Part shown: in pieces, positions 11,543-52,464 of the stretch
Numbering within the stretch: position 1 is the first letter of the stretch
Layout: each line of letters opens with the position of its first letter
Source of the DNA: an archaeon
GTDB taxonomy: Archaea; Nanobdellota; Nanobdellia; Pacearchaeales; GW2011-AR1
Direction of reading: 5' to 3'
Length of the DNA stretch: 64,000 nt
Assembly: GCA_018697295.1 (NCBI GenBank)
Contig: JABHTJ010000002.1
Span: 154,027 to 218,026, forward strand
Program-made: the position numbers and the translations under genes
Notes under the pieces: generated by a model
Seen by the model: the letters and a program-made list of their open reading frames with translations, nothing else
Database searches by the model: none
What the model was told of the DNA's origin: nothing

Positions 11543-13693
11543 ATGGAACAAAAAAAGGTGATTAATTTTATTTTGATTACAATTTTGAGTGTTGCAGTTA
11601 TTATTATTTTATTGGCAAATTTTGGCGTTGATGTTTTTAGTAGTCCGAGGATGGAAGAAAAATATCTAGAATCTTTTGCTGAAACTGAAAAAGGAGTTAT
11701 CTTGAATGCAGAAGTTTCAGATCTTTCCTCGACACTTATTTATTCTACGAATATAGCTAAAGATGAAATTCATACCATTGGAGTTTATCTTAATGGGGAA
11801 AAACAAGATTTGAATTTGAAATTTCATGAAGATTTTAAACAGCTAGATACAGGTGTTTATCTTGATCCGAAGAAATTAATCGACGGAAATAATGATGTTT
11901 ACTTAAAAATTCTTTTGAAGAATAGAAAGACTTTTGAAGATCGGCGGCTGTTGAGATTTGATTTAAGTGGTCCAGAAATTATTTCTATGGATACTGCAGA
12001 TGATGCAAGTTATCAAATTATTGATGTTATCGATGTCGCAGAGATTAGTGCGGTATATTATCTGGACGGTATTGGGACTTCAATTGATTCTTTAATAGAC
12101 TTGGGAAGTGGAAGATATAAGCTCGTAGTAGGAGATATGGGTCTTGAAGACATTGTTTATTATTTAGCGGATGTGAATGGAAATAAAAATGCTTATTCTC
12201 CTCAGAGTCTGGTTGGCGGATTTGACCGAATTGAGAAATTAGTTCCTTCGATGAACCTTCCTCAAGAAATTAATCCACAATTGATTTCTTTTGAAGATAT
12301 TATCCAAGTAACCAAATTTGGTGTAACTGAGGAAGGTGAAACTATTGATCTATCGTTGAGCCCTGCATCTTGTGAATATCGTGCAAAGTTTGTTTCGTTT
12401 TTCTTGTATGATGACTATTCTTTAGAAACTGGATTTGCTCGAGCACATACCAATCTTAACATGATTTATGGGGGATATATTTTATCAATTAACCGTTTTA
12501 ATCAACAATTAGTTCCTACCGATTATTCTCCCCTCAGTTCCCAATTGATTGTTCCCGGAGATTATTATTTGGTAGGTCTTGATAAAAATAACCTTGGTCC
12601 ATTTGAAGGCATTGTAGAGGAAGATTATGATGTGAGTTATTACACTGACGAGAATTTAGTTATTCATGAAATTCATATCCCTAATGGTGGTTTTAGGGTA
12701 ACTGATAACCATTACTTCTTTGAGCGAATTAAGGCATTTAATGATGGTTCTTTAACAACCTCTGTTGAAGGATTTGTTGAAGCTGTTACAAATCCTATTG
12801 ATAGGGAATTGATTTTGATTGCAGATTCTCTTAGCGATGCGGCCGGATCTACGCGTCCACGGGAAGGGATGATGCTGTTGTCTAATACTAATTCTGTTGT
12901 CGTTGGTCATGAAATGGCACATAGTCTTGGACTTGGACATTGGAATGCAAATGGTCCTGGAGTATCTGCAGTAAATCTTATGGATACTAATCCTTATCCT
13001 AGCACTCGATTGGAATGGAATCAGCTTGAGCGAATTCATGCTGCTCTTTGTGGAGATCCTGCAAATAAAATTTCGTTAGAGGGAAGATATGGTGGTTTTG
13101 GAGTAAATCTTGATTATGAGGGATTTCTTGCAGGAGATGGTACCAATAAATGTGGTAATGGTATGATTGCTAAAAATGAGCAAGATGATTGGGAATGGTG
13201 TGAAGATAGTTTTGAGGAAGTTCCGGTTTGGGGAAGTGAAGTTTGTCCAGATATGTATTCTCGTCCTATTGTAAAATGGCCGAGCGTTTATAGTTGTAGT
13301 TCAAGTTGCCTTTGTTCTGGGGGTGGAACTGGAAGTGAACCTCCTGCTCCTGGTACGGGAGACTCTGTTCCTCCAGGTGGTGGTGGTAATCCTGGTGGCG
13401 GGCCTAGCACTCCTCCTGGCGGGCCTCAAGGAAAAGATTGTGCAACTTGCAAGCCCGAGCCAGTTTTTGAACAAAATCCAGATAGTTTTTTAATGGAACC
13501 TACCGGAGAATACGAATGTCCTGATAAAGATTGTCCGAATGGTGCTGGGCCTAATGGAGAAATTGTTGAGATGGAATGTAAACCTGATATGAGTCAATTA
13601 TCTCCCGGACAACCACCCTATTCATGTAAGTGTCAACCTGCCACTGGAAAGAAACCAAAAGAAGCTTCGGATAGATCTTTTGAAGAATTTTAA
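11543..13693 (+). CDS. Membrane-anchored/secreted metzincin-like zinc protease with Pro/Gly linker and Cys-rich C-terminal domain (paralog A)
   Basis: N-terminal hydrophobic segment; VVGHEMAHSLGLGHW (HExxHxxGxxH); GGGTGSEPPAPGTGDSVPPGGGG linker. Confidence 0.75.
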   Translation: MEQKKVINFILITILSVAVIIILLANFGVDVFSSPRMEEKYLESFAETEKGVILNAEVSDLSSTLIYSTNIAKDEIHTIGVYLNGEKQDLNLKFHEDFKQLDTGVYLDPKKLIDGNNDVYLKILLKNRKTFEDRRLLRFDLSGPEIISMDTADDASYQIIDVIDVAEISAVYYLDGIGTSIDSLIDLGSGRYKLVVGDMGLEDIVYYLADVNGNKNAYSPQSLVGGFDRIEKLVPSMNLPQEINPQLISFEDIIQVTKFGVTEEGETIDLSLSPASCEYRAKFVSFFLYDDYSLETGFARAHTNLNMIYGGYILSINRFNQQLVPTDYSPLSSQLIVPGDYYLVGLDKNNLGPFEGIVEEDYDVSYYTDENLVIHEIHIPNGGFRVTDNHYFFERIKAFNDGSLTTSVEGFVEAVTNPIDRELILIADSLSDAAGSTRPREGMMLLSNTNSVVVGHEMAHSLGLGHWNANGPGVSAVNLMDTNPYPSTRLEWNQLERIHAALCGDPANKISLEGRYGGFGVNLDYEGFLAGDGTNKCGNGMIAKNEQDDWEWCEDSFEEVPVWGSEVCPDMYSRPIVKWPSVYSCSSSCLCSGGGTGSEPPAPGTGDSVPPGGGGNPGGGPSTPPGGPQGKDCATCKPEPVFEQNPDSFLMEPTGEYECPDKDCPNGAGPNGEIVEMECKPDMSQLSPGQPPYSCKCQPATGKKPKEASDRSFEEF

Positions 13694-13776: not shown

Positions 13777-15891
13777 ATGAGACAAAAAAAGGCGATTAAT
13801 TTTATTTTGATTACAATTTTGATTGTTGCAGTTATTTTTATTTTGTTGGCAAATTTTGGCGTAGATGTTTTTAACAGTCCTCGAGGTGGAGAGATTTATA
13901 TAAATTCTTTTAATGAAATTGAACCTGGCGTTATTTTAAATGGGGCGACCCCAGACATTATTTCTTCGATAGCTTATTCAACAAATCTTGTGGAGAGTGA
14001 CGTAAAAAATATTGAATTTTATATTAATGGTGAATTGCAAAATATTCGTCCAGAATTTTTTGAAGAAATTGAACAATTAGACACTGGTTTTTATCTCAAT
14101 CCAAAAAATCTTTTAGATGGGAAAAATGAATTTTATTTGAAAATTTTTCTAAAAAATCGCAAAATTCTTGAAAATAAGGAAATTTATATTTATGATTTGC
14201 AAGGTCCAGAAATTATTTCTATGGAAACTGCCAAAGATAAAAGTTATCAAATTATCGAGGTTTCGGATACGGAGGAAATAAAAATTCTTTATTATGAGAG
14301 TGGTGAGTCACTCGAGATAGAGACCTTAATTGAACTAGGAAGTGGAAAATATAAAATTTTATTTGGCGGATTAAATCCAGATAATTTTGTTTATTATTTA
14401 TTCGATGAACATGAGAATACGGGTATTTATTCTACAAAAAGCTTGAATGGTGGCAGGTCAAATGTTAAAAATTTAGTTTCGGCAATGAATTTTCCAAAAG
14501 AACTAAACCAAGAATTGATTACTGCAGGGGATGTGGCTTCTGTTTCTGATGACGAAACTTTAAATCTTCTTTTGAGTCCGCCTTCTTGTGAATATCGTGC
14601 AAAGTTTGTTTCATTTTATCTTTATGACGATTCTCCGGGAAACGAGGAATTTAATCGAGGACTTGCGAATCTTAATCAAGTTTATGGCCAATATCTCACT
14701 TCTATTAATCGATTTAATCAACAATTACTTCCGACCGATTATGCCCCTATCACTCCCGCCCTCCTTAATTCAGGAGATTATTATCTTATTGGAATTGAAC
14801 AAGATAATTTAGGTCATTTTGGTGGAGTTTTGGAAAGAGAACATTATTATGATGAGCAATATGATCCTGAGCATGTATTTCCAATTTATACTGGTGGTGT
14901 TCGGATTGTTAATTATGCGGCACTTTTTTCATTAATCGATTCTTTTAATGGGGGTTCTTTAACTCCTCCTACTGATGGGACTGTCGGAGGAATTGCTCAG
15001 GCAGTCGTTAATCCTGATGATAAGGAATTAATTCTTATTGCGGATTCAATGGTTGGAGGAGATGGAATGACGGCTGCTAAAAGGGGTATGATGATACTTA
15101 CAGATACTGTTCCTCGTGTTGTTGGGCATGAAATGGGGCATAGTCTTGGACTTGGACATTGGGATGTTACTGGCGTAGATTCTTCAAATTATAATTTAAT
15201 GGACGTTCCCACTATGACTGCTGGATTGGAATGGAATCAACTTGAAAGAATTTCTGCTGCCCTTTGTGGAGACCCTGCCAATAAAATTTCTCTGGAAGGA
15301 AGATATGGGAAATTCGGAGTGAATATGGCTTATGAAAATGGAAATCCTAATGATTGTGGAAATGGTTTGATTGCAAAAAACGGAAATAATGATTGGGAAT
15401 GGTGTGAAGACAGTTTTTACGAGGTTCCTTCTATTTGGCAAAGTGATGAAATTTGTCCAGATATGTATTCTCGACCAATTGTGAAATATCCTAGTGTTTA
15501 TGCATGTGATAATAGCTGTCTTTGTTCTGGTGGAGGGACTGGGAGTGAACCTCCTGCACCTGGGACTGGAGATTCTGTTCCTCCTGGTGGAGGAACTGGA
15601 GGCGGCGGAGGTCCGAGTACTCCTGGCCCTAAACCTAAAGTATGTGAAGATTGTAAACCTAAATTAACCATTGCAGGAAATGCTGGCGGTTTTGGAATTC
15701 ATGCAGAGTTTACCTGTCCAGATAAAGACTGTCCAAATCTTGTTGGGCCCAATGGCGGAATTATAGAGCAAGTATGTAAACCAGATACAAGTCAACTATC
15801 TCCTGGTCAAGCTCCTTACTCCTGTAAGTGTGAGGGAGTTGGGGAAGAGACGATAAAAGATGCTTCAGATACATCTTTTGAAGAATTGTAA
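13777..15891 (+). CDS. Membrane-anchored/secreted metzincin-like zinc protease (tandem paralog B)
   Basis: Same architecture; VVGHEMGHSLGLGHW; extensive similarity to 11543-13693. Confidence 0.75.
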   Translation: MRQKKAINFILITILIVAVIFILLANFGVDVFNSPRGGEIYINSFNEIEPGVILNGATPDIISSIAYSTNLVESDVKNIEFYINGELQNIRPEFFEEIEQLDTGFYLNPKNLLDGKNEFYLKIFLKNRKILENKEIYIYDLQGPEIISMETAKDKSYQIIEVSDTEEIKILYYESGESLEIETLIELGSGKYKILFGGLNPDNFVYYLFDEHENTGIYSTKSLNGGRSNVKNLVSAMNFPKELNQELITAGDVASVSDDETLNLLLSPPSCEYRAKFVSFYLYDDSPGNEEFNRGLANLNQVYGQYLTSINRFNQQLLPTDYAPITPALLNSGDYYLIGIEQDNLGHFGGVLEREHYYDEQYDPEHVFPIYTGGVRIVNYAALFSLIDSFNGGSLTPPTDGTVGGIAQAVVNPDDKELILIADSMVGGDGMTAAKRGMMILTDTVPRVVGHEMGHSLGLGHWDVTGVDSSNYNLMDVPTMTAGLEWNQLERISAALCGDPANKISLEGRYGKFGVNMAYENGNPNDCGNGLIAKNGNNDWEWCEDSFYEVPSIWQSDEICPDMYSRPIVKYPSVYACDNSCLCSGGGTGSEPPAPGTGDSVPPGGGTGGGGGPSTPGPKPKVCEDCKPKLTIAGNAGGFGIHAEFTCPDKDCPNLVGPNGGIIEQVCKPDTSQLSPGQAPYSCKCEGVGEETIKDASDTSFEEL

Positions 15892-20161: not shown

Positions 20162-20238
20162 GATTCTCAATTGACGTCTCGTACGCCTATTTTGAATTGC
20201 GCCACGACGCTCCTCGTTCACGGTGGCGCTTGACAATC
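20162..20238 (+). repeat. 77-bp structured repeat, copy 1
   Basis: About 77% identical by hand alignment to 47764-47840, same length; closed by TTAGATTcTCAA/TTGAcAATCTAA stem (20159-20241). Confidence 0.75.
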
Positions 20239-37830: not shown

Positions 37831-37944
37831 TAATTTCTTTCTTTTTGGCAAAAAGAAATTTCTCTTCCACCCAATTGGTGTGCCCCTGTTAGGGCAAAGT
37901 AGAAAAACTTATTCCAAAACTTTGTTTTGACATTTAATTCCATT

Positions 37945-46061: not shown

Positions 46062-46130
46062 CTTTTTATTACTTATAGTAAGTGGTTATTGTTTATAAAA
46101 TTTGGGTTTTTTGTCGGTTTAGGATTTATC

Positions 46131-46156
46131 GTTTTTGGCAACGTGTTACCAAAAAC
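46131..46156. promoter_or_regulatory. 26-bp near-perfect dyad, candidate operator
   Basis: GTTTTTGGCAACGTGTTACCAAAAAC between divergent genes 46061(-) and 46304(+). Confidence 0.45.
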
Positions 46157-46303
46157 TCGAGAGGGTGCAGTTTGTGAGTGCCTAGGTTTTGTGTTGTTGG
46201 TTGGTACTGGATTAATCCGATTAGGAATAATCTAGTTGGGTTGGTTAGATTGGGTGCGGTTTAGTACAACAATTCCTTTAAACTCTAGTCTAATTCTAAA
46301 AAC

Positions 46304-47749: not shown

Positions 47750-47763
47750 TGGATTGACTTATC

Positions 47764-47840
47764 GATTGTCAATAGCGCTTTTGTAGCGCTATTTTGTATT
47801 GCGCCACGACGCTCTTTTGTCGCGGCGGCGCTGGACAATC
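47764..47840 (+). repeat. 77-bp structured repeat, copy 2
   Basis: GATTGTC...GACAATC closing stem; internal AATAGCGC/GCGCTATT and GCGCC/GGCGC hairpins; homologous to 20162-20238. Confidence 0.75.
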
Positions 47841-47886: not shown

Positions 47887-50800
47887 TTATCTTCTTGATT
47901 TGACTTCTGCTGTATTTGGCGAAGTTGAACTTGACGTAGTTGTTGGCTCCGAATTTTTCCCTTCACTGTTCGCGTCGCTAGTTTCTTTGATGTCATTTCC
48001 TGTTGAACTGATTTGGCCAGTGAAACTTTTTATCTTATCGTAGATTTTTTGAATTACTGTTCTTGAATCTAGTTCTGGTGTTGGAGGCGATTGGGGTAGT
48101 GGCGCAGTTGCACAAACACAGCCCTGCGTTCCCGAAATTGTTGGCATAATACATGTTCCGCCGCTACAAGGATTATCTCCTCCCCAATTTGCTTCATCTA
48201 ACAGGTTTATATTTACGTCACATTCTTCTGATTGTCCGTAAGCATTTGGTGTTTGAACTATTCCATCTCCACAAAATCCTGCTGGAAGAGAGGCTGCACT
48301 ACAATATCCCCATGGGTCTCCATTTCCTGCCCAAGCACAAATTTGATCATCGCAACGTAACTTTCCATCACAATTATAATCTACATTTGGATTTACTGGA
48401 TTTGCACAATTATTGTTCTCTGTCCACCATTGCGGATGGACTAATGGGTCTGTATCATCACAATCTCCTGCACAATCAGTAAATCCATCATTATCATTAT
48501 CTTCACAAGTGTTTGTTTGGATTCCATTAGGAATATTGCTTACAAAATTTAGTCCACAAGGAAGTTCTTCATTGAATTTTTCTAAATGAATTCCAACATT
48601 GTCAGTTTCAAAGAATCTATCTGGATTAATATATGCTACCTTAAAAAGTTCTGTAAAAATAGCTTTATCTTCGCTAAATGAAGAGATACCCAAATCTTGA
48701 GACACTTTTAACCCACCACACCATCCAGTATACATTTGTGGATCTTCAATATTTTGGTATGTTGTATATGCTCGTAACTCTGAACCGGCTGGGTATGACC
48801 GATAAATTAATCTATTATATAATGCCACGCCTCCCTCTCCCTCATAGAGAATTATTGAATCATCAGCGTCGGAAGGATCGCCATTTCGAACCTTGGAATA
48901 ATCTTTATATACGAAAGTTCTAAGGTGCCAATAGTAATCTGTTATGATTTCTTCGATTAAATCTATATCATTTTGGTCTGTGATTGCATTATAAAATGCA
49001 TTAGATATTCCTTGTATGGCTAGTAAGTCATGATAGTGTTGTATTTTACAGTAGCCTAAGCTCTCAAAGCATCCACCACCTGATGCCAAATATTTTACTG
49101 GTAATGGATCTCCAGTCATAGGACTATTTCCATTAATTCCATATTGGCTTACAGTATCTTTATTTCTATTCCAATCAATAATTCCTAGTGTCGAAGTTAT
49201 GCTGTCTTGATAATAAGGGTCTCCGGTCATTGAGAACATTTTTGTAGCAATACCTAACAGCCGGCCATTATCTCTGGACGATTGATAAAAGCCTGGGACC
49301 CATCCTTCATTAGCAATATAGGACGAAACTATATTCTCTACCTGATTTTCAGCTAATTCAAATGCCATATAATCTCCAGCTAACATATATCTGTATGCTT
49401 CAGTTCCAATAGATGCATGAGATGCAATTTTCCCTGACCAACCGTGCCATAATGAACGAGAACCAAAAAGAATATTATTGTATAATACTCCGTTTGCACT
49501 TCTCCTATATTCGTTATTAGTATTGACGTCATGATCGCAGAATCCAAGATAATCTGTTGCACTTCCAGTGTGTCTGCAATCTAAAATTCCTCCAACCGTA
49601 GTTTCATATAAAGGTGAATCAAATTGTGTAAATGTGCTTGCATCCAAATGTTCTAATGGTTCATATCCTATTCCGTGGTCAGTTAGATAGGGAGTTGCAT
49701 AAAGGAGAAATCTCATTCCATCTAAATATTCTCTATTACAGTCATCCTGACAAGACATGAAATATTTTATTGCCTCATCTGGGTCCTGTCTGAGATTTGG
49801 GGCCATCCCTGGAGTTCCTGCATTTTTGTAGCCATAGAAATATCTTCCAAAACGGTGACCTAAAAAACCACTCGATAATTCGCCCTTTTTTCCAGCAAAA
49901 TCGGCCTGAGCCTCGGTATCCCAATTAAATGTAGGATCGATTGCATCAGGATTTACCATGTCTTCGAAAAAATATTTACCTGCGGTATTCCACTTGTCCA
50001 ATTTTTGCCCTCCATTAATTCCATTTTCTTCATAATAATCAAATTGTTTTGGGGTATTTGTGTCCAGAGATAGCGTCATTCTTGTTAAAATTCCCTGCCC
50101 TCCTGCAATGAAATTACTCGCAGAGTTTCCCTCATTATATGGTGCGCCGCTCAAAGTTTCTTGACCGTCGGTTGGCATAATCCAATATTTTCTATGTCTT
50201 GGTCCATTATTTTCTTTGTAAGATGGGTCTAGATAACTATCGTCTAAGATGTAAATATTTGATGGATCTACAGTTTTAGTCTCTAAAGAAATATTTTCAT
50301 AAAACATAAATCCGTTTTGACCAGTTATATAATTATAGGGATCATTACCTACTCCTGGAGTCCAACTATCCTCTGCCAAGTTACCGAAGTTAGTTACTAA
50401 AACATCAATTTTGATATGTGGCTGATTACTTACTATAGTTATAATAAATGTCGCACTAAACATGTAAGGAAGGCATGTTCCGCTTGAGTGTGTTGTACTA
50501 CATCCTTCAATTGGTCGAAGATTTTTTTGTAGTTTATACACTTGTGAAACTGGCCCAGTTTCTAAGCGTTCTATTAATGTGTCGTGGAGGTCGAATGCTA
50601 CTTCGTATTTTCCTCCAAGTAAATCTCCGGCGTATACTTTAATCGAATCATCTGTTAATGCAGTTAATACTTTTGGATGCATTACAAAGTTAGGGTTTGT
50701 TCCTTCTCCGACAGTATAATCTTTTCGTTCCCCAGCACTAAGTGAATGTAATACTTTTGCAACTCCAGTCCTTACCCATAATTCATCTGTTGCAGGATCT

Positions 50801-52464
50801 GTTATTTTATAATAAGAGGTTGGCATAATTTGAGTTACTAAAGATTCTCCTGCATTTACATGGACTATTTTTATTTGACCAAGTTGTGATTTTACGTATT
50901 CTCCCTGTTCAAAAGAAATTGGAAAGAAAGCATAATCGTTATTTGCGTCGAATGAATTATCGTTTTCTAAAAATACATCGTTTGTTCCAGGCTCGGGAGG
51001 AATGACAGTACATTCGGAATCATCTCCATCAGTATATCCATCACAATCATTATCATCTCCATCACTACACGTATCTCCCGTATCATCGTTTTCTAGTTCT
51101 TCTCCCGGGAGAATATGCCCTTCACAGTCTCCCCAAAATCCTTCCTGGTCACAAGTTACTGTTCCAGCATTACATACTCCAAATTCTCCTGTTTGACATG
51201 CCTCAGATGTTCCTGGAGTACATTCCGAACCTGCTTGACATTCCGGTTCGTTGGCATCTTTTCTTCCATCACAATCATTGTCTCGACCATCATTACAATT
51301 TCCTGCAGCGATACTCTCCTCAGTCCCATCTCTTACTTGATCGCACGTTCCCCACGCACTTGTACTTTGACAGATATGAATTCCTAAATTACAAATTCCA
51401 GGCTCTCCCGTTGAACAAAACTCGTCTTCTCCAGGTGTACATACTTGGCATCCCGTATCTGCTGCGTCGGTGTCTCCATCACAATCATTATCAAAAGTAT
51501 CTAGACAGGTTCCTGCTAATTCACTTTCTTCATCTGGTTCATTATCTTGTTCACAATTTCCCCATTCATTGTTGGGTCCGCAAGTTCTTGTTCCAGCATC
51601 GCAGATTCCAAGAAGGTCCATATTACAACTTTGTGTATCTCCTTCGAAACATAATCCTATGACACAATCACCATCTTGGGAATCAATTGCACCATCACAA
51701 TCATTATCGAGTCCGTCTGTACATATTTCTACTCCGGGTGAGTTCGCAACGCAAGCTCCCCACGATTCTTCTGAACAAGTTTCTGTTCCAACACTACAAA
51801 CTCCTTGTAAGTTGGTTGGGCAACTTCTAGTATCTCCATTAGTGCAATCTCCGCTTGAACCACTGCCGCCTCCACCGCCTCCGCCACCGCCTCCGCCAGA
51901 GCCTCCTGAACCTCCACTTCCCCCAGAATCATCACTATTGTCGTTTTCATTTTCAAAATCGAATTCGTTAATAATTATTTTAAAACTTGTAGAATAATAG
52001 TTGTATACATCTTCTTCAATTGAAATTACTGCGACGAGATAAGAAAGTTTTCCATTGTACTTTCCTATTAAATTTTCATTTAAGTTTAGTTTAATTTTAT
52101 TTGGGTTTATGAATGTGAAATCTAGTTTTTCGAAATCTTCTAAACTTTCTATGAACTCAATTTCTGGCCCAATATATAATCTCATTGTCGGTTCGTTTCC
52201 ATTATCTGAAGATTGTGGATAAAAATTTGCTCCGAGAATTTCATAGGTGCTTTCGTCAACGGCAGTGATTGATTCTGCGAGGATTGGGATTGAATAATCT
52301 TCTGAAGAATCTAATAAAAATTCTTTTTGCAATGGCCCTTCAAAATAAAATGTGAATAGGAGTATTGTTGGGATTCCGATGGCGATTAGTGCAATGAGAA
52401 CCTTAGAAGTTGTTTTTAATCTCGGCTTATTGTTCCTTCCCATTGCCCTCTCCCACTCTTTCAT
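47887..52464 (-). CDS. Very large secreted protein (1525 aa) with Gly-rich linker and MopE-like DNDCDG metal-binding repeats
   Basis: N-terminal TM; GGSGGSGGSGGGGGGGGGGGSGSSG; CTDGLDNDCDGAIDSQDGDC, CLDTFDNDCDGDTDAADTGC, CNDGRDNDCDGRKDANEPEC, CSDGDDNDCDGYTDGDDSEC. Confidence 0.85.
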   Translation of the reverse strand: MKEWERAMGRNNKPRLKTTSKVLIALIAIGIPTILLFTFYFEGPLQKEFLLDSSEDYSIPILAESITAVDESTYEILGANFYPQSSDNGNEPTMRLYIGPEIEFIESLEDFEKLDFTFINPNKIKLNLNENLIGKYNGKLSYLVAVISIEEDVYNYYSTSFKIIINEFDFENENDNSDDSGGSGGSGGSGGGGGGGGGGGSGSSGDCTNGDTRSCPTNLQGVCSVGTETCSEESWGACVANSPGVEICTDGLDNDCDGAIDSQDGDCVIGLCFEGDTQSCNMDLLGICDAGTRTCGPNNEWGNCEQDNEPDEESELAGTCLDTFDNDCDGDTDAADTGCQVCTPGEDEFCSTGEPGICNLGIHICQSTSAWGTCDQVRDGTEESIAAGNCNDGRDNDCDGRKDANEPECQAGSECTPGTSEACQTGEFGVCNAGTVTCDQEGFWGDCEGHILPGEELENDDTGDTCSDGDDNDCDGYTDGDDSECTVIPPEPGTNDVFLENDNSFDANNDYAFFPISFEQGEYVKSQLGQIKIVHVNAGESLVTQIMPTSYYKITDPATDELWVRTGVAKVLHSLSAGERKDYTVGEGTNPNFVMHPKVLTALTDDSIKVYAGDLLGGKYEVAFDLHDTLIERLETGPVSQVYKLQKNLRPIEGCSTTHSSGTCLPYMFSATFIITIVSNQPHIKIDVLVTNFGNLAEDSWTPGVGNDPYNYITGQNGFMFYENISLETKTVDPSNIYILDDSYLDPSYKENNGPRHRKYWIMPTDGQETLSGAPYNEGNSASNFIAGGQGILTRMTLSLDTNTPKQFDYYEENGINGGQKLDKWNTAGKYFFEDMVNPDAIDPTFNWDTEAQADFAGKKGELSSGFLGHRFGRYFYGYKNAGTPGMAPNLRQDPDEAIKYFMSCQDDCNREYLDGMRFLLYATPYLTDHGIGYEPLEHLDASTFTQFDSPLYETTVGGILDCRHTGSATDYLGFCDHDVNTNNEYRRSANGVLYNNILFGSRSLWHGWSGKIASHASIGTEAYRYMLAGDYMAFELAENQVENIVSSYIANEGWVPGFYQSSRDNGRLLGIATKMFSMTGDPYYQDSITSTLGIIDWNRNKDTVSQYGINGNSPMTGDPLPVKYLASGGGCFESLGYCKIQHYHDLLAIQGISNAFYNAITDQNDIDLIEEIITDYYWHLRTFVYKDYSKVRNGDPSDADDSIILYEGEGGVALYNRLIYRSYPAGSELRAYTTYQNIEDPQMYTGWCGGLKVSQDLGISSFSEDKAIFTELFKVAYINPDRFFETDNVGIHLEKFNEELPCGLNFVSNIPNGIQTNTCEDNDNDGFTDCAGDCDDTDPLVHPQWWTENNNCANPVNPNVDYNCDGKLRCDDQICAWAGNGDPWGYCSAASLPAGFCGDGIVQTPNAYGQSEECDVNINLLDEANWGGDNPCSGGTCIMPTISGTQGCVCATAPLPQSPPTPELDSRTVIQKIYDKIKSFTGQISSTGNDIKETSDANSEGKNSEPTTTSSSTSPNTAEVKSRR

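Follow-up and report, generated by a model that had tools for sequence, protein, structure and literature searches.

Gene context and structure of the element

The window, by which we mean the whole stretch of 64,000 nucleotides analysed, forms part of a contig (C6) that makes up 255,147 of the 731,777 bases of the genome. Between two convergent genes it carries a structured element of 77 nt, designated E6, which lies 15 nt past the stop codon of the plus-strand gene and 47 nt from the 3' end of the minus-strand gene. The 1525-aa gene whose end adjoins E6 (window 47887-52464) possesses repeated DNDCDG motifs and has a weak MopE-like match. In window coordinates the parts of E6 are:

47756..47763, plus strand: 5' flank GACTTATC, pyrimidine-rich, as are the 5' flanks of all copies in this genome
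47764..47840, plus strand: whole element E6, 77 nt (7+63+7), from sequence, fold and genome search
47764..47770, plus strand: 5' arm of the closing stem P1, GATTGTC; a compensatory change from G-C to A-U occurs among the copies of this genome
47771..47793, plus strand: hairpin P2, AATAGCGC-TTTTGTA-GCGCTATT; five pairs changed on both sides
47794..47800, plus strand: single-stranded junction TTGTATT; the TT before GCGCC is conserved
47801..47831, plus strand: P3/P4 hairpin GCGCC...GGCGC (P3 arms GCGCC at 47801-47805 and GGCGC at 47827-47831) with conserved apical GCTC..TC-GC; four P3 pairs changed on both sides
47834..47840, plus strand: 3' arm of the closing stem P1, GACAATC

A genome search yielded six copies of the element (best E-value of copy against copy 3e-20), and a covariance model built from these recovered the same six and no others up to E = 10. 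All of them are on C6, the remaining 476 kb of the genome being without any, and all six are on the plus strand:

C6 74581-74659, plus strand: E1, 7 nt past the stop of a plus-strand gene
C6 97807-97883, plus strand: E2, 5 nt from the stop of the minus-strand ArgRS gene
C6 125194-125301, plus strand: E3, 8 nt past a plus-strand stop and upstream of a plus-strand gene; extra 31-nt hairpin within P3
C6 129401-129478, plus strand: E4, between divergent genes
C6 174188-174264 (window 20162..20238), plus strand: E5, the first copy in the window, between divergent genes
C6 201790-201866 (window 47764-47840), plus strand: E6

C6 is considered chromosomal because it carries genes for EF-1 alpha, IleRS, ArgRS and ProRS as well as GatB/GatE-like and HerA-like genes (named by eye). 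Together with the size of the genome, these proteins suggest an archaeon of the DPANN type. All six copies are intergenic, in convergent, divergent and tandem contexts; four are situated 5-15 nt from the 3' end of a gene, whichever way that gene points, and the other two between divergent genes.

An earlier note, made from the sequence of the window, had described E6 as a 77-bp dispersed repeat of high GC content in an AT-rich genome, convergently located and folding into a three-way junction. Its coordinates, stems and hairpins proved exact when checked against the sequence, the location is as described, and the genome-wide search that it called for brought out the six copies. The GC content of the element is 0.52, whereas the contig has 0.35 and intergenic DNA 0.285. 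When E6 was folded as RNA it took the form of a three-way junction, with z between -3.7 and -4.0, and none of 200 shuffled sequences folded as well. The note had also argued against a simple terminator or promoter. This is supported by E4 and E5, which lie between divergent genes, and such roles are disfavoured because the direction of the element is independent of gene direction. Terminator, promoter and tRNA-like readings were all rejected in view of context and structure.

Conservation of the fold

Mean column identity among the six copies is 64%. In these copies alone 90% of cells pair and 11 two-sided changes occur, a level reached by none of 500 shuffles. When the copies from a second genome (G111, see below) were included, two-sided changes were found at 9 of 18 pairs, amounting to 22 cells where shuffling gave 6.9 on average (0/500), and slid controls gave far lower values; this alignment (A6) comprised the core without P1 and was made with MAFFT, not fitted to the structure. 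The more variable part of the element is the first hairpin. Two stretches are unpaired yet conserved, namely the TT preceding GCGCC and the apical GCTC..TC. On the plus strand several of the pairs are G-U.

Distribution in other genomes

The covariance model matched no element in 15 congeners, the weak matches there being taken as chance. Among 200 genomes of the order the sole carrier besides the present genome was G111, which belongs to the same family but another genus and is 62% complete. The model of the six original copies found six copies there at E values of 1e-9 to 4e-4. A core model (R2), built with the G111 copies that it scores, placed these six at 4e-20 to 7e-13 and added copies on contigs C26, C18 and C10 at <=3e-4, so that the copies in G111 comprise six that are clear and about three that are decayed. 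In the copy on C26 (L143:1501-1561) P3 runs the opposite way to P2, as though this hairpin had been flipped.

When 378 genomes drawn from the class were searched, two weak single matches were added and nothing else; weak model matches in G337 and G422 were taken as chance. No Rfam family matches the element, and phage and plasmid collections gave either nothing or one chance match. In IMG/VR 67 matches to a 15-mer were obtained, none of which passed the model (best E 0.17), and stricter patterns matched nothing. When 84,980 GTDB species genomes were scanned with a DNA pattern, three matches came up (Clostridiaceae, Alistipes and Anaerolineaceae), which likewise failed the model and were attributed to chance; two Alistipes matches lay within an 81-bp direct repeat resembling paralogous coding sequence. 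Such a patchy occurrence fits mobile DNA.

Evidence for mobility

In two archaeal genomes, both from one family, the element forms a dispersed set of copies with conserved structure. Relatives have empty sites where it is inserted, and in one case it lies in-frame within a conserved gene. On contig C49 of G111 the element is found inside the gene for a 571-aa PheT, where it encodes an in-frame insertion of 26 aa. The PheT proteins of the two genomes are 38% identical over the protein, and that of the first genome lacks the insertion, with an alignment gap exactly at the element (...TVFEKAG[GVGRRSEQGAMRRNSKQAHEAPFGG]GDTSS...). A second copy, on contig C15, lies in the gene for an Nre protein and takes up residues about 331-356, in the interval that separates Nre_N (to 323) from Nre_C (from 380). 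In both cases the gene reads the element antisense to its forward strand, the frame differing between the two.

Empty sites could be identified for E3. The HerA gene downstream of this copy is present in 13 congeners, and in nine of these (L151, L152, L153, L155-L158, L161 and L163) the upstream pilin-like gene is kept and the element is missing. The gap measures 31 nt in L151 compared with 163 nt in the genome of the window; in L161 other sequence intervenes at the equivalent site. A different large fold, GCAAATTAAAATTT...AAATTTTAATTTGC around two hairpins, was observed at the E3-equivalent place upstream of HerA in the congener G009 (L159:1250-1500).

Because of the PheT and Nre insertions, the empty E3 sites and the patchiness, the element is best regarded as mobile DNA rather than as a terminator, a promoter or a conserved host RNA; half of this evidence comes from G111, and both genomes are incomplete assemblies. 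The earlier note had suggested a mobile (REP/MITE-like) or ncRNA element. Its mobile part is supported, since occurrence is patchy, PheT of G111 has an in-frame insertion, congener sites are empty and all gene contexts are represented. A REP in the strict sense it is not, because the GTAG tag is missing and the genome of the window yielded no Y1 transposase, and an independent role as ncRNA is neither shown nor needed.

Orientation relative to inferred replication

All copies have one orientation relative to strand composition, whatever the direction of the neighbouring genes. At third codon positions the plus strand of C6 is G-rich in plus-strand genes (+0.38) and also in minus-strand genes (+0.25), and since the sign does not depend on gene direction, transcription cannot be the only cause of the skew. 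The nine G111 contigs have a third-position skew of either -0.33 to -0.78 or +0.39 to +0.71, with one sign across gene directions, and in 9/9 this sign agrees with the strand of the element. The folding strand is therefore on the G-rich strand in 6/6 copies of the first genome and in 9/9 of G111, which makes 15/15 in all (two-sided binomial p = 6.1e-5) and 12/12 for the clear copies (p = 4.9e-4). The copy on C26, which matches on both strands owing to its inverted P3, was assigned to the minus strand by P2 and the junction. Exclusion of the DNA near the elements left the result unchanged. Strand asymmetry is very strong on the G111 contigs L164-L172, with a third-codon-position GC skew of up to about 0.7 in both gene directions.

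The G-rich strand is usually the leading strand. If this applies here, the folded strand would correspond to the lagging-strand template, as judged from GC skew rather than from a mapped origin.

Ends and flanking sequences

P1 is common to all copies of the first genome, and in G111 it is copy-specific or absent. It pairs well in L120 (GATCGTGCA), L121 (GGAGGCGC) and L122 (GAAGAGATGT) and is unpaired in L123-L125, L123 having C-rich flanks on both sides. The true left-right combinations of G111 paired better than all 265 derangements. The element may favour targets able to pair around it, or else insertion may create a new outer stem.

In the nine copies whose ends are defined by a paired P1, the six bases on the 5' side are 83-94% pyrimidine (30/36, p = 0.0004, in the first genome and 17/18, p = 0.00045, in G111, both from small samples and with ends set by P1). 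The 3' flank is unremarkable (21/36 pyrimidines). These nine copies have no fixed 5' target tetranucleotide, and inspection of the flanks compared in both genomes revealed no target-site duplication.

Relationship to known elements and possible mode of transposition

By its behaviour the element resembles IS200/IS605, REP and Rickettsia palindromic elements (RPEs), and yet it is neither a REP nor a Rickettsia RPE. The orientation of IS200/IS605 elements follows host replication (PMC5371812), and the element shares with them a structure on one strand and an orientation that follows replication (15/15 against GC skew); it may also resemble them in a one-sided preference in the 5' flank and a lack of target duplication. 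It differs in having no tnpA or tnpB, in being far smaller and in its copy-specific outer stem; the conserved ends with guide sequences typical of IS200/IS605 are not found, as P1 varies from copy to copy in G111. REPs are single-stranded DNA hairpins, mostly intergenic and sometimes intragenic, which are cut by TnpA-REP (PMC6006769). The element is like REPs and RAYT-mobilised REPINs in these respects of structure and location, but inspection of the alignments revealed no GTAG or GTGG at the 5' foot of a hairpin, the genome of the window has no detected Y1 transposase and only six copies, and the paired inverted arrangement is missing. RPEs are small palindromic repeats without a mobility gene of their own, many of them in-frame in conserved protein genes (PMC10969869, PMC3733652). 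The insertions in PheT (compared with the uninterrupted PheT) and in the Nre linker of G111 are reminiscent of these. However, RPEs measure about 150 bp and have a CGTC end according to one survey, whereas the element has 77 nt, a three-way junction, an archaeal host and a complete replication polarity, and inspection of the aligned copies showed no CGTC at their left or right ends. Like classical prokaryotic MITEs it is short and non-autonomous and has inverted terminal repeats in the first genome; these are only 7 bp long and unconserved in G111, target duplications were not seen, and among the elements encountered there is none from which it could be recognised to derive by deletion. A search of open-licence papers brought up no previous account of it, and we place it among the miniature palindromic mobile elements.

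The reading we prefer, with a probability of roughly 0.6, is that of a miniature non-autonomous palindromic element moved as single-stranded DNA by an IS200/IS605-like route, the enzyme being unproven. The folding strand would be exposed on the lagging-strand template, where an enzyme that reads the hairpins would perform cutting and joining. It would then insert again where the lagging-strand template is single-stranded, on the 3' side of a pyrimidine-rich tract, and would leave the target unduplicated. This overall logic would be the 'peel and paste' of IS200/IS605 elements. Landing in-frame in a gene, in a protein linker or at the surface, may be tolerated as in the case of RPEs. The enzyme may have been lost from the genome of the window or may yet be found there. 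The REP-type tyrosine transposase that the earlier note proposed to look for did not turn up in a search with PF01797 (genome 85% complete; the control search worked). Three proteins of the tyrosine-recombinase type are present and resemble XerA, a phage-type integrase and topoisomerase IB (by eye). Since the copies are old, as their column identity indicates, the mobilising enzyme may be gone.

Several points weaken the single-strand reading. Apart from the missing PF01797 protein, the ends in G111 are not conserved between copies, unlike those of IS200/IS605, and several other insertion sequence families also have a replication-linked orientation, brought about via the sliding clamp (PMC5371812). 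Moreover, all six copies of the first genome are on one contig, for which the chance is about 0.005 with an even spread, and the model gives no account of this. A bolder proposal, to be held only tentatively, is that of a tiny selfish class in archaea whose movement takes place solely at the replication fork, in the form of folded single strands, through a non-Y1 enzyme or host repair alone, with a copy-specific closing stem that is built or chosen and with in-frame passage through genes.

It is unlikely, though worth serious consideration, that the element is a MITE-like palindrome of an ordinary double-strand (DDE) transposase, its bias arising from clamp contact or from selection against wrong-way copies. 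The mobility evidence would fit equally, clamp-linked bias has its precedents (PMC5371812) and the copies of the first genome do have 7-bp terminal inverted repeats. On the other hand, the terminal repeats are probably not recognised ends, as those of G111 vary by copy and three copies have none, target-site duplications were not seen, covariation shows that the folding of one strand is conserved, and a bias of 15/15 is complete. Constant orientation relative to replication, a conserved structure on one strand and the intergenic location in the first genome would also suit a polar chromosomal site acting as folded single-stranded DNA on the lagging-strand template along one replichore, such as a single-strand initiation or replication-restart hairpin or a segregation signal. 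Such a site is distinctly improbable, since no congener and hardly any relative has the element, which is missing also from the other 476 kb of its own genome and present within the PheT and Nre coding regions of G111.

Very improbable, too, are paralogous small ncRNAs or 3'-UTR elements that fold into a three-way junction. The compensatory changes, the G-U pairs on the plus strand and the location of two copies 7-8 nt and one copy 15 nt past a plus-strand stop are what one would expect of them. Against this stand an orientation independent of gene direction with two copies between divergent genes, the antisense copies inside genes of G111, the lack of an Rfam family and the patchy occurrence. 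It is scarcely credible that the copies are recombination sites resembling attC, decayed members of an integron-type cassette array: folded single-stranded sites with one direction throughout and a tyrosine integrase in the genome would be in keeping with them, but spacings of 4-45 kb between housekeeping genes are not cassette-sized, the GTTRRRY/RYYYAAC core is missing and the integrase-family proteins have the affinities given above.

As to how RPE-like palindromes without a known transposase spread, the complete polarity seen in both genomes speaks for movement as a single strand, a reading that is directly testable. In-frame palindromic insertion occurs in archaea with small genomes, whose housekeeping proteins carry element-coded peptides, and the covariance signature is available for finding more such elements.

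Other repeats and features of the contig

Besides the element, four dispersed non-tRNA repeat pairs were noted on C6, all four in direct orientation. A second dispersed intergenic repeat, GGTGTACCTCT..GAGGCAAAGYAGAAAA..CCAAAACTTTGTTTTG, is located at window 37868-37943 (C6:191894-191969), C6:104370-104450, L110:13756-13796 and L154:3056-3094; its two C6 copies are on one strand, and the type also occurs beside HerA in a congener. A hairpin repeat, CGTTTTTGGCAAC..GTTACCAAAAACTCGA, has two copies on one strand (window 46128-46189, i.e. C6:200154-200215, and C6:99647-99709). The intergenic pair C6:68996-69076 and 153748-153826, the latter just left of the window, is direct and folds as a long hairpin, and the intergenic pair C6:12446-12494 and 78754-78801 is direct as well. 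The last 10 kb of the contig (C6:245000-255147), outside the window, have mostly 48-52% GC and a foreign tetranucleotide use (correlation 0.44), and may represent either an integrated element or an assembly join. Finally, window 11543-13693 and 13777-15891 are tandem paralogous genes for proteins of about 710 aa, with a DNA identity of 76-81% in blocks and a zinc-metalloprotease-like HEMAHSLGLGH motif.
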